Positions 5,075 to 22,715 of a DNA stretch of 59,299 nt are shown here, in pieces. Below the pieces are notes generated by a model, which saw only the letters and a program-made list of their open reading frames with translations, ran no database searches and had not been told where the DNA came from. Position numbers and translations under genes: made by a program. The stretch comes from an uncultured Actinomycetes bacterium (lineage in GTDB: Bacteria; Actinomycetota; Acidimicrobiia; Acidimicrobiales; RAAP-2), in NCBI GenBank assembly GCA_903893745.1, contig CAITNF010000003.1:1-59299 (forward strand), in the 5' to 3' direction. Positions within the stretch are counted from its first letter, which is position 1, and each line of letters opens with the position of its first letter.

Positions 5075-6175
5075 TTAGGCGATGGCGCAACGATTCGGAC
5101 CAAGCTCGAGCTCGGCCGATTCGTTAGTCGCCAGTTCGAACCCGGCGTTGATGGCCACGATGTGCTGATAGTTAGGTGGACGGTCCTTTACGTTGGCCAA
5201 AGCCCAGGCCACGAAGTCCTTTTCGCTCAACGCCAGGGCCGGCAAGGTGCCCCGCAACTCGCCGAGTTGACGCGAAGTAAAGCGTCCGGCCGTAACGGGC
5301 ACATCCGCACCGTAGTGCGCAGGAAAGATAGTCATCGAGTCGCCCAGGGGCAGCACTCGTTCGTGGAGACTCCGGTAGAGATTGTGGGCAAAAGGCTCAG
5401 CCTGATCAGCCAAATCGGGACGCCCCACGCTCTCGAGAAAGAGGGTATCGCCAGTAAAAAGGGCGGAGTCGCCCAATTGGTACATGGTGGAGCCTTCGGT
5501 ATGGCCCGGCACGCTGACCGCCGAGACCCCCAGCGACACGCCCGCGGCGAGTTCAATAACTCGTCCGTCGCTCAGGGGCTCAAAGTCAAAGGTAAAGGGG
5601 TCGTGCGCGTTCAACCACAGCGCCGCCCCGGTGGCGGCGACCAATTCACGAGCACCGCTGAGGTGATCGGCGTGCAGGTGCGTATCGACCACGTGCGTAA
5701 TCGTCCAACCGTGTCCGCGCGCCACGTCGCGATACTGCTCGATGTCGAGTGAGGGATCGATCACCACGGCCGACGACTGAGCCCCCACGACGTAGGAGAG
5801 ACAGCCCTTACCTCGTCGACGTACTTGCACGACCGTCGCCCCACCGAATTCGCCGCTCACTCGGTCGTACGTCGACGTCCACGAGCCCATGCCGCCTTCG
5901 AGCACCGCACTGGCAATGCCGTGGGTCGCGAGGAGTTGTGCACCCTGTAATGCTCGAGCACCCTTCGCGCAGATGACCACGAGGTCACGATCAAGAGGAA
6001 TTTCGTTCAGTCGTGCTTCCAGCGAACCGAGCGGCACGTTGTGCACGCCGGGAATCTTCCATTCAGCTACTTCGTCGGGCTCGCGTACGTCAAGTAAATA
6101 CAGTGCCGCGTTGTCATCCAGTGTGGCGACCAACTCGTTGGTGGTACGCGTAGAGATGAGTTCATCGAACGACAC
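5075..6175 (-). CDS. Rhodanese-metallo-beta-lactamase fusion (persulfide dioxygenase-like)
   Basis: A 366-residue soluble protein predicted to handle sulfane sulfur. Residues about 8-105 form a rhodanese domain with active Cys69 in the loop CAKGAR. Residues about 112-300 form a metallo-hydrolase domain with THLHADH (165-171), His225, Asp243 and His287, the metal set of ETHE1-type persulfide dioxygenases. A C-terminal tail of about 65 residues follows. Established CstB-type fusions have the dioxygenase first; here the rhodanese comes first. Predicted chemistry is transfer of persulfide sulfur and oxidation of glutathione or low-molecular-weight thiol persulfide to sulfite. The start is GTG at 6175 with no Shine-Dalgarno and a TATACT box 7 nt upstream, suggesting a leaderless mRNA. 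It is divergent from a second rhodanese gene across 64 bp. Confidence 0.88.
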   Translation of the reverse strand: MSFDELISTRTTNELVATLDDNAALYLLDVREPDEVAEWKIPGVHNVPLGSLEARLNEIPLDRDLVVICAKGARALQGAQLLATHGIASAVLEGGMGSWTSTYDRVSGEFGGATVVQVRRRGKGCLSYVVGAQSSAVVIDPSLDIEQYRDVARGHGWTITHVVDTHLHADHLSGARELVAATGAALWLNAHDPFTFDFEPLSDGRVIELAAGVSLGVSAVSVPGHTEGSTMYQLGDSALFTGDTLFLESVGRPDLADQAEPFAHNLYRSLHERVLPLGDSMTIFPAHYGADVPVTAGRFTSRQLGELRGTLPALALSEKDFVAWALANVKDRPPNYQHIVAINAGFELATNESAELELGPNRCAIA

Positions 6176-18679: not shown

Positions 18680-20056
18680 TCAACGAAGGATGCGTAGTTC
18701 AAGCGACGTGCCCTCGGCTACCGGGAGAAAACGGGCGGTACCGCCGTGGACCGTGACAATTTCTTTGACAATGGCCAGGCCCAGTCCCGACCCCCCCGTG
18801 AGGCGGCTACGGGCGGAGTCGGCGCGAACGAAGCGCTCAAAGTAGCGCTGACTCTGGTCCACGTCGAGACCCGTACCGTCATTGTGCACGGTAATGACGG
18901 CCATTGGTCCGTCATAGTTGCTCGTCAGATTGACGGCGCGCTCGGCGTAGCGCATTGCGTTATCTACGGCATTACGAATCATCCTCGCGAGAAAATCATG
19001 ATTGCCAACGACCCGAGTTGGCTGCACTCGCGCGACATCGAAGGTTAGAGCCGAGAGTGACTTCGCACGCAGCACCTCGTCAAAGAGCAGGTCATCCAGA
19101 TCGACTTCCGTGGGTTCGGGGCGGGGGCGACCTTCGTCGTTACGAGCAAGCCAGAAGAGGTCGTCAATCAAAGTTTCGAGACGATGGCCCTCTCGCTGAA
19201 TTACCGCTATCGTTTCTTCACGACTGATGGTTGATGTTCCCGCAGCCGCACGATCCACCGTGGCGAGCAGGGTGGTAAGCGGGCTACGAAGTTCGTGACT
19301 GGCGTTCGACATGAACTCGTGCTCTAAGCGTGTCGAAATTTCGAATCGATCGAGCATGGCGTTCACGGTTCGAATCGCGCGAGCAATCTCGTCATTGCCA
19401 CCGGGGTCCGGTAGTCGCTGGGCGAGATTCTGCGCAACAATCGTGAGGGCTTGGCGGCGAATCCTCTCCACCGGTGATAACGAGAGTCCCACACCCAACC
19501 AAATCAGTGCACCAACGACGAGCAAAATCAGGGGGAACGAAATCAGCGCGGCAACGAGCACTGAGCGTTCGCCATTGGCGATTGAATTCCCTAGGAAGAA
19601 CGCGTAGACCAGTCCCGTACCCTTGCTGGTATGGACCTCGGCCACCGCGGCCAAATGAAGTTGGCTCACGATGTTGCGCAGCGCCAGATTACGTGAGAGT
19701 TGAGCGCGTAACCCGTTGGGCTCGCTAAAGGTGGCGCGGGCGTACGCCAGTGCCGGCTTATTCTCCAACGTCGAGCTGGCCGCCCAGACTTTGGTGCCCG
19801 CTAAATTAGTGACCTGGACGACCACGTTGTTCGTTGTCTCAAAAATCATCTCGTCAGCGCGAGGTAGCGACACCGAAGCGAGGCGAGACTCGGTCCGAGT
19901 AATGGCGGCCTCGACCTGACTTTGCGCATCGCGAACCAACGTGTGGTGCGAAAACCCTACGAGCGCCACCGCCGCGAACCCCATCACGACCGCCACCGCC
20001 ACCATGAACGACAGTGTCAGTCGAGCGCGCACCGAGAAACGACCCAGTGGTTTCAC
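18680..20056 (-). CDS. Sensor histidine kinase of the DoxX-Rieske operon
   Basis: 458 residues. TM1 (about 13-35) and TM2 (about 165-192) flank an extracytoplasmic sensor domain of about 125 residues with no recognised fold. HAMP (about 192-245) and HisKA follow, with phospho-acceptor His254 in NASHELRSPL. The ATPase domain has the N-box RNAVDNAMRYA (361-371), G1 DGTGLD and G2 GGSGLGLAIV (421-430). The start is GTG 20056, sharing one base with the regulator's TAG stop (TAGTG). The frame is open further upstream, but that part lies inside the regulator gene. It presumably phosphorylates the OmpR-type regulator encoded just before it. Confidence 0.93.
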   Translation of the reverse strand: MKPLGRFSVRARLTLSFMVAVAVVMGFAAVALVGFSHHTLVRDAQSQVEAAITRTESRLASVSLPRADEMIFETTNNVVVQVTNLAGTKVWAASSTLENKPALAYARATFSEPNGLRAQLSRNLALRNIVSQLHLAAVAEVHTSKGTGLVYAFFLGNSIANGERSVLVAALISFPLILLVVGALIWLGVGLSLSPVERIRRQALTIVAQNLAQRLPDPGGNDEIARAIRTVNAMLDRFEISTRLEHEFMSNASHELRSPLTTLLATVDRAAAGTSTISREETIAVIQREGHRLETLIDDLFWLARNDEGRPRPEPTEVDLDDLLFDEVLRAKSLSALTFDVARVQPTRVVGNHDFLARMIRNAVDNAMRYAERAVNLTSNYDGPMAVITVHNDGTGLDVDQSQRYFERFVRADSARSRLTGGSGLGLAIVKEIVTVHGGTARFLPVAEGTSLELRILR

Positions 20057-20742
20057 TAGGTTCTCGTCATTTGGTAGCCACGACCGCGTTGGGTACGGAT
20101 TAATGAGTCCGATGAATCCACGTCGATCTTTCGCCGCAGGTAGCCAATGTAGACCTCCACAATGTTGGGGTCGCCACTGAACTGATCGCCCCACACTGCG
20201 TCAAGGATCTCCTCTTTGGTCACGACGACGTCAGCGTGACGCACCAGAAACTCCAGCAGTTCGAACTCTCGAGGGGTCACGGCAACGTCGTGGGCGCGCA
20301 CCGTGACCCGGTGTTCCACTAGGTGCAGTGTGACCGGACCGGCACTTATGAATCGCTGCACGTCGTGATCGTGACGGCGCAGCAGCGAGTGCACCCGCGC
20401 CAGCAGCACGTTGTGCTCGAAGGGTTTACGCAGAAAATCATCGGCCCCGACTTCGAGCCCCTCAATTTCATCGAGCTCGCCATCCTTCGCGGTCAACATC
20501 AGCAGTGGGGTGTGTACGCCAGCCAGGCGAAGATCCGCACAGACGGCAAAACCGTTACGTTTGGGCAGCATCACGTCCAACACGATCAAGTCATAGTTTC
20601 CGTCACGGGCCTCGCTCAGTCCCGTCAGCCCATCGTGACGCTGGGTGACGACGAAACCATCATCCTGGAAAATTTCGGCGAGGGCCTGGGCTAGTGCGAG
20701 GTCGTCTTCCACGACGAGTAGACGTCGAGGCTCGTTGCTCAT
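20056..20742 (-). CDS. OmpR-family response regulator of the DoxX-Rieske operon
   Basis: 228 residues. Receiver domain about 8-120, with acidic pair ED near 12-14, phospho-acceptor Asp56 in DLIVLDVMLP, and the conserved Thr and Lys (LTAKD, RKPF). A C-terminal winged helix (about 130-228) ends RTQRGRGYQM, as in OmpR/PhoB proteins, which bind tandem direct repeats. ATG 20742 overlaps the stop of the DoxX-Rieske gene by 4 nt (ATGA), and its own stop overlaps the kinase start. The three genes are therefore one translationally coupled unit. Confidence 0.95.
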   Translation of the reverse strand: MSNEPRRLLVVEDDLALAQALAEIFQDDGFVVTQRHDGLTGLSEARDGNYDLIVLDVMLPKRNGFAVCADLRLAGVHTPLLMLTAKDGELDEIEGLEVGADDFLRKPFEHNVLLARVHSLLRRHDHDVQRFISAGPVTLHLVEHRVTVRAHDVAVTPREFELLEFLVRHADVVVTKEEILDAVWGDQFSGDPNIVEVYIGYLRRKIDVDSSDSLIRTQRGRGYQMTRT

Positions 20743-21974
20743 TGTAAGTAGATGTAGCCGTCAGGTCCTTCGACGACGTGCAACTTCGTGAGACCCTGCG
20801 GTGCTGGTCCCGAGATCACGTCGCCCGTTGCCACTTGGAACTGTGAACCATGACAAGGACAGACCAGCGACTTGCTTTGCGCGTAGTAACCCACCTGGCA
20901 TCCCGCGTGGGGACAGACCGAGTCGTAGGCCACGAACTGGCCGGGGGCCGTAGCAATAATCACGCCGGGGTCGCCCGTCGAAGGAACAGTAAATGTTGCG
21001 GACTCTCCGACCGCCAGACTCTTCGCGGGTCCCAGCTTCGTGCCCGGTATCGCATTTGGATTCGAAGTGGTCGTGGCAGTGCCCGGCGTCGTCGTGGTCG
21101 TGGGTCCGGCGGTGGTCGTTGTTGAAAGATTCCCAATGCCGTTCGTTGATCGCAGGTGCGCATTGCCGACCATTTTTCCAATATCGGCGGCGGCCCCACC
21201 GAGTACCAGCGTCGCCCCCCCGACTACGGCCGCGGCGGTACTACCGAGCACCAGAGTGCGTCGATCGATGGTGTCGAGGGTGACCCTGGTCGCCAGTGGA
21301 GCACGCTCGCCAATCAACACCGGGCATTGACTTGATTCACAGGCCAGCCCCGCTCGAGCCGCGCAGTGGCCCTTGGTGAAGTGTCCGCAAAGACTCTGCA
21401 CGCGGGCAAACGGAACCGCCACGAGTTCGGGATTGGGCGCTCCAAGTTTTGCGGTTACGCGCTTGGCTAGCCAGGCGTCCAGGGAGAGTCGAGTACCGCC
21501 CCCCGACACCACCAGGGGCAGCCAGGCGAAGAGAAACACGATATCGGCACCCGTGTAAAAAGGTGTGGCGTGAAAACTCACGGTGAGAAAAAGTATGAGT
21601 GACATCAACACGCCACCGAGCGCGGCGATGCGAGTCCACAGTCCCAGTAGGGCACCAAGACCAATGGCGAGTTCACTCAGCGCGAGTGCAATCCCCAGGG
21701 GCTTCGCCCCACCTTGCAAGTGAGCGAGCAGCGCGTGCAACGGACTCACTCGGATCGACGCGGCGAACTGTGCCTGCATCCCCGACGGATTTTTTGGATT
21801 AAAAAATGTGGGGTTGGCCAACTTCTGGAGACCCGCAAAGGCGAAGGTCACTCCGAGAAATACTCGTAGCGGTAGCAGCGCCCATTCGGCCATGGCCCAG
21901 GCCCGCACGGGGGCGCCCCACGGCGCGCGACGGCCCTTGCTCTCGGTGCGACGGACCGGACGGCTGGAAGGCAT
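20739..21974 (-). CDS. DoxX-Rieske [2Fe-2S] fusion membrane protein
   Basis: 411 residues. Residues about 30-155 form a four-helix DoxX/DoxD-like membrane domain, a family tied to quinone-linked thiosulfate oxidation and redox stress. Residues 196-217 carry four Cys (196, 204, 212, 217) in a loop. RR at 238-239 and a hydrophobic helix (about 240-262) follow, then a Thr/Pro-rich linker (about 283-303). The C-terminal Rieske domain has C354-P-H356 and C372-P-C374-H375; Cys359 and Cys374 can form the disulfide typical of high-potential bc1/b6f-type clusters. The linker suggests that the Rieske head is outside the membrane. Start is uncertain: ATG 21974 has no good ribosome site and GTG 22019 is in frame. 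It is co-transcribed and overlapping with the two-component genes. Confidence 0.88.
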   Translation of the reverse strand: MPSSRPVRRTESKGRRAPWGAPVRAWAMAEWALLPLRVFLGVTFAFAGLQKLANPTFFNPKNPSGMQAQFAASIRVSPLHALLAHLQGGAKPLGIALALSELAIGLGALLGLWTRIAALGGVLMSLILFLTVSFHATPFYTGADIVFLFAWLPLVVSGGGTRLSLDAWLAKRVTAKLGAPNPELVAVPFARVQSLCGHFTKGHCAARAGLACESSQCPVLIGERAPLATRVTLDTIDRRTLVLGSTAAAVVGGATLVLGGAAADIGKMVGNAHLRSTNGIGNLSTTTTAGPTTTTTPGTATTTSNPNAIPGTKLGPAKSLAVGESATFTVPSTGDPGVIIATAPGQFVAYDSVCPHAGCQVGYYAQSKSLVCPCHGSQFQVATGDVISGPAPQGLTKLHVVEGPDGYIYLQ

Positions 21975-22002
21975 AACGCTATGTTGCCACAGGCCCTGAT
22001 CA

Positions 22003-22021
22003 GCGTGGTCACTTGCCACGC
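22003..22021. promoter_or_regulatory. Inverted repeat in the DoxX-Rieske/dedA divergent interval
   Basis: GCGTGG-N7-CCACGC lies between the divergent starts at 21974 and 22044. It could be an operator for the regulator encoded in the operon or for another dimeric factor. If the DoxX gene starts at GTG 22019, the repeat would instead be within its 5' coding end. Confidence 0.35.
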
Positions 22022-22043
22022 GTTCATCAACCAGACTGGGGGG

Positions 22044-22715
22044 ATGCAGACCGCGTCCGTCATTGCCTTTCTCCTAAAGGAGATCCATCAACTGCCCGCA
22101 GGCCTGGTCTACGGCCTGGTGACCCTTTTGGTCTTTGGCGAGGCCGCCCTCTTTGTTGGCTTCGTCCTGCCCGGCGAGACGGCGGTGATTGTGGCGGGGG
22201 TCGTCGCGAGTCAGGGTCACGTCAATATTGCGGTGCTCTGTGGACTCGTAGTCGTCGCGGCCATTGTGGGCGACTCGGTGGGCTACGCCATTGGTCTGCG
22301 TTACGGCGAACAGTTGCTCGGCCTACCAATCATTCGCCATCGGCGAGAACAACTCGAACGCGCATTAGAAGGTCTGCGTCGTCGCGGACCGATCTACGTG
22401 TTCGTTGGCCGGTTCACCGCCTTCTTACGTGCGGTGATGCCCGGACTCGCCGGCATGAGCAAGATGCACTATCGCCGATTTCTGTGGGCTAACGCATTGG
22501 GCGGCTTGATTTGGGGAGTTGGATTCACCCTGCTCGGCTACTTTGCCGGTCACGCGCTCGCTCGGGTCGAAAAGTACGCGAGTTGGTTTGGAATCACGCT
22601 GCTCGTGCTGGTCGTGGCACTCTTCGTGACGTTGCACGTCACCCGCAAGCGACGAGAAGAACGTGAACTCACCGAGTGGCGCACCGAGCACGGCTCAGAG
22701 CAGCGCGACCAGTAG
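22044..22715 (+). CDS. DedA/SNARE-associated family membrane protein
   Basis: 223 residues with about five membrane segments. The family core is present: FGEAALFVGFVLPGE, a GDSVGY segment, GRFTAFLRAVMPGLAG with the key Arg residues, and a C-terminal LLGYFAGHAL. DedA proteins are thought to move lipids such as undecaprenyl phosphate or phosphatidylethanolamine across the membrane. ATG 22044 is preferred because a GGGGGG tract sits just upstream; an earlier in-frame start at 21981 would overlap the promoter of the divergent gene. The last 21 bp overlap the convergent GH1-like gene. Confidence 0.9.
   Translation: MQTASVIAFLLKEIHQLPAGLVYGLVTLLVFGEAALFVGFVLPGETAVIVAGVVASQGHVNIAVLCGLVVVAAIVGDSVGYAIGLRYGEQLLGLPIIRHRREQLERALEGLRRRGPIYVFVGRFTAFLRAVMPGLAGMSKMHYRRFLWANALGGLIWGVGFTLLGYFAGHALARVEKYASWFGITLLVLVVALFVTLHVTRKRREERELTEWRTEHGSEQRDQ

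Follow-up and report, generated by a model that had tools for sequence, protein, structure and literature searches.

Can a membrane-bound Rieske protein be served by a two-component system of its own? The question is raised by three genes on the minus strand of a 59,299-nucleotide (nt) stretch of DNA from an uncultured actinomycete of the Acidimicrobiales (contig CAITNF010000003.1; the whole stretch is hereafter called the window). In the order in which they are read, these genes code for a protein of 411 amino acids joining a DoxX-type membrane domain to a Rieske head (the fusion, 20739..21974, found in the list of open reading frames and with Pfam), an OmpR-type response regulator of 228 amino acids (20056..20742) and a sensor histidine kinase of 458 amino acids (18680..20056). 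The best start of the fusion, the ATG at 21974, was picked by comparison with relatives; the frame stays open up to a GTG at 22019. Both gene overlaps reported in an earlier note, which was made from the letters of the window, can be read there: the TGA of the fusion and the ATG of the regulator share ATGA (4 nt), and the TAG of the regulator and the GTG of the kinase share TAGTG (1 nt). Pfam families above their cut-offs in the regulator and kinase (hereafter the pair) were Response_reg, Trans_reg_C, HAMP, HisKA and HATPase_c. The source genome (1.66 Mb, 96% complete) carries a single copy of the fusion, and the contig search with a single protein query returned one named locus. Our answer is that the observation is right and that the coupling is real above chance but facultative. 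We favour, with a probability of roughly 0.58, a reading built on sequence comparison that makes the fusion an extracytoplasmic electron carrier and the product whose amount would be set by its two-component system.

Examination of the window's genus allowed 72 loci to be classified out of 77 genomes; the others either gave no full fusion and no kinase at 1e-40 (G113, G128) or were cut by contig edges (G119, G131, G142). In 51 of the 72 loci the regulator comes immediately after the fusion, with the exact 4-nt overlap in 48; one of the 51, L078, has a broken fusion frame, and its regulator begins 228 nt farther on. Two further genomes are linked less simply, G118 at a contig edge and G144, where other genes and a contig break separate the regulator from the fusion. 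Eight loci carry the fusion without the pair, six the pair without the fusion and three a DoxX gene without Rieske head beside the regulator (two of these also show the kinase, and the third is cut by the end of its contig), and two are unclear at contig edges (G075, G040). By eye, the intervening genes of G144 (L033 positions 1-1855 and the end of L212) include one resembling the metallo-beta-lactamase fold.

The partnership is therefore not obligatory, a stricter version that we rejected since each part persists without the other. A genome-wide search (22 genomes) found no kinase at 1e-40 in any of the eight fusion-only genomes of the genus, with the proviso that drafts may miss genes; persistence of the fusion without such a kinase is as expected of an effector. 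The opposite loss has left remains. In relatives the fusion gene ends ...GGTAACCTCTACCTCAAATGAGTG (L082, L008), its final bases beginning the regulator, and in the six fusion-less loci traces of that end can be made out by eye directly ahead of the regulator start, most clearly in L206 (GGTAACCTCTATCTCAAATGG) and L209 (GGTAACCTCTACTTCAAATGA) and in more decayed form in L207, L208, L210 and L211. Traces of this kind would be expected after an internal deletion in the fusion gene, which suggests that the pair outlived the fusion in these lineages.

Outside the genus, the family sample comprised 150 genomes, of which 146 matched part of the query at 1e-3, many of them only through a bc1-type Rieske domain. 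The recount rests on 39 loci of other genera and on 97 sequences. Excluded from it were the duplicates L006, L030 and L046, the DoxX-only loci L086-L088 and L032, which belongs to the genus itself (record G145, on the contig of L063) and was not counted as another genus; from the 97 sequences only, L077, L078, L085, L093 and L098 were also left out as cut or broken. A regulator follows the fusion in 12 of the 39 loci, 2 stop at a contig edge and 25 have none. The survey, which covered the downstream same strand, listed L109 among these 25; its pair, seen separately, is divergent and upstream, so that 24 of the 39 loci have no pair beside the fusion. Most of the 25 sit at a different chromosomal site with no DedA gene alongside. 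The three-gene linkage is thus present in relatives (51/72 in the genus and 12/39 elsewhere in the family), but the fusion is also widely found without a regulator, an outcome that the earlier note had named as one that would refute its dedicated three-gene system. What stands of that system is its maintenance in most loci of the genus and a minority elsewhere; its obligatory character does not.

Another explanation would be that the three genes are simply inherited side by side in a stable neighbourhood, fusion and pair being functionally unrelated. Relatives show synteny over much of the region (DedA, ECH, CoxB, PntA and others), and co-occurrence in the genus (53 genomes with both, 8 with the fusion only, 9 with the pair only when DoxX-only genomes are included, and 1, G113, with neither; Fisher p = 1) gives the presence of one part no predictive value for the other. 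Passive inheritance of this kind sits poorly with the retention of the ATGA-type overlap in 48 of 51 loci and with what is found beside the fusion in other families.

A search with an alignment of 27 fusions at 1e-20 matched 23 of 198 genomes of the order and 25 of 247 of the class, two samples that overlap, contain the window's family and include Rieske-only matches. We read 18 loci from 17 genomes outside the family. Five of them (L163, L164, L168, L172 and L174) have an OmpR-type regulator no more than 3 kb from the fusion, and L162 has one at a distance of about 3.2 kb; from the regulator density of these genomes, 3.9 per Mb, 0.55 such neighbours within 3 kb were expected (P = 1.6e-4 if the loci were independent). 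In a tree of 40 regulators, clade A (support 100/99) contains the regulator of the window and all other sampled fusion neighbours of its family except L109, plus L168, and clade B (100/100) consists of L162, L163, L164, L172 and L109. None of the 16 regulators taken from elsewhere in G000, G237 and G238 falls in either clade; L200, a control region that yielded no regulator, is absent from the tree. The regulator of L174 groups with one that is not beside a fusion, and that neighbourhood therefore looks incidental. Pair and fusion may be convergent, divergent or co-directional, so a single inherited arrangement does not account for them. The second regulator lineage in several orientations, together with a promoter element confined to loci having both parts, makes passive co-residence improbable, and we place it last of the three readings considered here.

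Regulators resembling clade B, chosen by score and placed on the tree only for L162, L163, L164 and L172, gave 29 matches in 28 of 248 genomes of the order, with a fusion in the stretch read for five (G193, G237, G270, G228 and G529). Genome G028 has a fusion without a clade-A pair and, elsewhere, a clade-B-like pair with no fusion near. An ApbE-cluster gene lies near 8 of the 24 fusion-less clade-B-like loci (L265, L269, L279, L284, L285, L287-L289), and some have ferric-reductase-like or Nuo51-like genes, each of these three clusters having been confirmed by Pfam on one member; in L164 the fusion and an ApbE-cluster gene share one neighbourhood. That clade-B-type regulators are found near exchangeable membrane redox genes favours the fusion as a regulated cargo. 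At the scale of the phylum (149 genomes, single protein query, 1e-30), the two matches outside the class were DoxX proteins with no Rieske head in the piece read.

The promoter element just mentioned is a direct repeat, TAA-N8-TAA, which stands ahead of the operon in 26 of the 49 loci that have both parts, against a mean of 0.45 of 49 in shuffled sequences. It occurs in none of 18 promoters lacking one part (Fisher 3e-5), or in none of 16 (p = 7e-5) without the two at contig edges (L083 of G075, L085 of G040). Control spacings of 6, 7, 9 and 10 gave 0, 0, 2 and 0 matches. The pattern was picked after the promoters had been seen, and the p-values overstate independence because the genomes are related. 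Promoter rows omitted were L080, which has no intergenic space, and L010, L018, L060 and L062, which have no DedA in the piece. Expectation-maximisation on the 49 promoters converged on GaTAAgnaTTcnnTAAGAg. In 21 of the 26 cases, 52-65 nt separate the box from the start of the fusion. When 13 genomes, all but one of them selected as carriers of the box, were scanned with a strict form of it, 10 of them showed 19 matches in all, 9 being the fusion promoter and 10 lying elsewhere; the reversed-pattern control gave 12, so the off-promoter matches do not exceed the control and no second target of the box is evident. A second exact box in G118 (L219) has no clear target, and outside the genus the box was not found, save for one TAA-N8-TAA in L091; a further match, in L032, belongs to the genus (G145).

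The window itself retains a degenerate remnant of the box of its relatives (GATGAACGCGTGGCAAGTG) at 22010..22028 on the minus strand, the best model site, scoring -5.9 where 24 of 49 loci score at least 19. This remnant overlaps an inverted repeat with 6-bp arms and a 7-nt loop (22003..22021, seen by eye and omitted from the automated repeat listing, whose minimum is 8 nt). The earlier note had proposed the inverted repeat as the autoregulatory site; it exists, but by eye it is not kept in the promoters of relatives, where the conserved box is the direct repeat, and we rejected it as the operator on that ground. The box of the window being decayed, control there would pass through a changed site or has been lost. 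The divergent gene on the other side of the 69-nt gap (21975-22043), at 22044..22715 on the plus strand, is of DedA type (VTT domain), a syntenic neighbour that we do not count as part of the system. Two short -10-like elements in the gap seem to lie near both start codons, as in leaderless transcripts, and similar ones are visible by eye in many relatives.

According to the preferred reading, with the fusion as regulated product, the DoxX helices would be inserted by Sec and the folded Rieske head exported by the twin-arginine (Tat) pathway. Electrons would then pass from membrane quinol to the Rieske head and on to an extracytoplasmic acceptor. The kinase would answer an envelope or respiratory signal, and the phosphorylated regulator would adjust the operon by binding the box, which mostly lies 52-65 nt ahead of the fusion. 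The proposal of the earlier note, redox sensing or control of an extracytoplasmic electron path, is partly supported, by the linkage, the second regulator lineage and the box, and not as to the inverted repeat site or an obligatory partnership.

Several observations weigh against the fusion as regulated product. Six genomes keep regulator and kinase after loss of the fusion, so the pair has some other use. Of the 49 loci, 23 lack the box, and the window is among them. Its distance to DedA ranges from 14 to 95 nt and is a fixed 17 nt in 9 of 26 cases, so that DedA may also be under its control. The excess of regulators beside the fusion is weak at family level (3 of 9 families, p about 0.014), related genomes not being independent. 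Finally, the stretches read around 24 of the 29 clade-B-like loci contain no fusion, some of these stretches being cut short by contig ends.

The kinase offers a point of comparison with a third explanation, modelled on the sae system of Staphylococcus aureus: the fusion may be an accessory that binds the kinase through its DoxX part, reads quinone or envelope redox state with its Rieske head and turns the kinase down. We hold this to be possible but doubtful. It is in keeping with the three genus loci that retain DoxX alone with the regulator. It is harder to reconcile with the many loci that retain the fusion without the pair, and with the six genomes that retain the kinase without the fusion. 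The extracytoplasmic part of the kinase (residues about 38-165, 19562..19945, minus strand) is poorly conserved, with no Cys in the window copy; its identity to the window is 34-38% in five loci without the fusion against a mean of 34% in 14 rows with it (which include the duplicate L032, from the same contig as L063), so that relaxation after loss of the whole fusion is not seen in this comparison, a further point against the accessory role. Two DoxX-only rows are lower, at 23-24%. An assignment of the kinase to the heavy-metal sensors CzcS/SilS/CopS (TIGR01386) was rejected, with 173 bits against a cut-off of 292.55.

The composition of the fusion is as the earlier note described it, a DoxX domain, a Thr-rich linker and a Rieske head in one protein: DoxX (PF07681) matched with 40.9 bits (cut-off 23.6) and Rieske (PF00355) with 49.8 bits (cut-off 20.3). 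The DoxD model was also above its cut-off (30.1 bits), and there was no Pfam match to DM13. The DoxX part (residues 29-175, 21450..21890, minus strand; Pfam DoxX 32-132) is helical in an AlphaFold2 model, with four putative membrane spans. After it comes a loop with four Cys (C196, C204, C212 and C217; 21324..21389, minus strand), variable among relatives and expected on the cytoplasmic side. We rejected this loop as a marker of the pair, since it occurs with and without it: in the genus in 51 of 51 cases with the pair and 6 of 9 without (the pair status of one of the nine, L083, being unclear), and in other genera of the family in 8 of 13 with and 11 of 24 without. A twin arginine, R238-R239 (21258..21263, minus strand), ahead of the fifth helix is invariant in alignment A1 and forms a candidate Tat signal; the pattern of a twin arginine directly before the last helix is found in 93 of the 97 family sequences. 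This layout matches that of dual Sec/Tat membrane proteins, and Tat dependence of the head is predicted from it.

The Rieske head (residues 308-411, 20742..21053, minus strand) has the ligands C354, H356, C372 and H375, all invariant in alignment A1, and two further Cys (359 and 374), a pair that we take to be the feature of disulfide-type Rieske proteins. High-potential Rieske proteins have a Tyr two residues beyond the Ser of CPCHGS. The Ser is present, but the residue at that distance is Phe in the window and in all 91 readable of the 97 family sequences, so that the high-potential character claimed for the head is half supported. AioB and PetC are among the closest solved Rieske heads by sequence and, among the fold matches listed, by fold. 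The AlphaFold2 model has a mean confidence score (pLDDT) of 75.7, with blocks of at least 90 in the Rieske head and 82-93 in DoxX except one at 58, and is poor between the two. The fold matches listed (50 of 376) are Rieske-type proteins or their complexes, judged by their titles; none of these 50 placed DoxX, and the few with the longest span were bc1 Rieske chains at 12 to 29 A root-mean-square deviation. Identification as the bc1 Rieske subunit QcrA (NF050121) was rejected, at 52 bits against a cut-off of 275 and with no qcr context. The same genome has a separate qcrCAB-like cluster on contig C11 (by eye), and for this reason the fusion is not its bc1 Rieske protein.

The surroundings of the fusion differ among loci without the pair. 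Two genera without it have a fatty-acid desaturase gene directly downstream of the fusion in nine loci (L051, L099, L100, L102-L105, L107, L108; Pfam on one member); the active site of a desaturase is expected on the inner side of the membrane, whereas the Rieske head is expected outside. An alpha/beta hydrolase gene in the opposite direction lies beside the fusion in 9 of 11 DedA-site loci without the pair and in 5 of 14 with it; the loci named for this observation are L035, L052, L056, L062, L064, L076, L084, L093 and L110. Farther away in the window, the gene at 5075-6175 reads by eye as a rhodanese joined to a metallo-beta-lactamase-fold domain, possibly a persulfide dioxygenase.

Among known proteins with one or the other half of the fusion, AioB (the small subunit of arsenite oxidase) and PetC (of cytochrome b6f) belong to other complexes, and neither is known to carry DoxX. 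Membership of the DoxX/DoxD family is what the fusion has in common with thiosulfate:quinone oxidoreductase DoxD/DoxA and mycobacterial DoxX, which are not known to have a Rieske head or a dedicated kinase. The actinobacterial Rieske proteins are closer in layout. Co-insertion by Sec and Tat has been shown for Sco2149, and a five-helix Rieske homologue of Kitasatospora setae, KSE_30950, was listed in 2017 (PMC5449189). QcrA and, by its description in that paper, KSE_30950 share with the fusion several helices, a twin arginine before the last one and then a Rieske head. In the fusion, unlike QcrA, the first four helices are DoxX and the gene is not in a bc1 operon; DoxX is not mentioned by name in the main text of PMC5449189.

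We found no description of a DoxX-Rieske/two-component operon among literature titles and abstract openings, in which subscription journals are thinly covered. The statement of the earlier note that no comparable system has been described is nevertheless too strong, given the sae operon. In the parts of PMC7189620 and PMC5083920 on which we draw, two genes upstream of those for SaeR and SaeS code for SaeQ, a membrane protein of the DoxX family, and for SaeP, a lipoprotein whose DM13-like domain is believed to be involved in electron transfer; a connection with reduced quinones has been proposed. SaePQ form a complex with SaeS that increases the phosphatase activity of the kinase (PMC5083920), and activation can proceed without them. 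The P1 promoter is autoinduced through GTTAA-N6-GTTAA repeats (PMC7189620, PMC5083920), and SaeS is described as an intramembrane-sensing kinase with a linker peptide (PMC4388633). As far as these sources go, two likenesses speak for the accessory role outlined above: a DoxX-type gene accompanied by a possible electron-transfer domain outside the cytoplasm lies directly upstream of regulator and kinase, and the half-sites of the promoter repeats are 11 nt apart, the same spacing as in the TAA-N8-TAA that part of the relatives carry (26 of 49) and that is degenerate in the window. The dispensability of SaePQ also means that keeping the kinase without the fusion is not decisive against such a role.

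There are also differences. The extracytoplasmic domain of the window is a Rieske head fused to DoxX instead of the separate lipoprotein SaeP, and a search confined to the locus found no separate SaeP-like DM13 lipoprotein, the upstream gene being of DedA type. The window kinase has a sensor region of about 128 residues, at odds with the intramembrane-sensing SaeS (PMC4388633), and SaeR has many targets whereas none beyond the operon is evident here. With no separate SaeP at the locus, a larger kinase sensor and a likeness to SaeQ by family only, we do not file the operon as a member of the Sae group. A broader idea, resting on analogy and in our view rather unlikely, is that DoxX with a redox head may be a recurring redox-reporting partner of OmpR-type systems, DoxX-Rieske and SaePQ being separate instances in which the head would read quinol or envelope redox state and DoxX would feed back to the kinase. 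Some genomes have only the pair, others only the fusion, others DoxX without a Rieske head next to the regulator, and others both parts; together they provide a natural set to separate the Rieske role from that of a DoxX accessory. If the Sae parallel is true, a defined iron-sulfur domain would tie respiratory redox state to the control of the kinase, a question that the sections of PMC7189620 considered here leave open in the case of SaePQ; if it is false, a dedicated regulator has still been named for an uncharacterised extracytoplasmic electron carrier.

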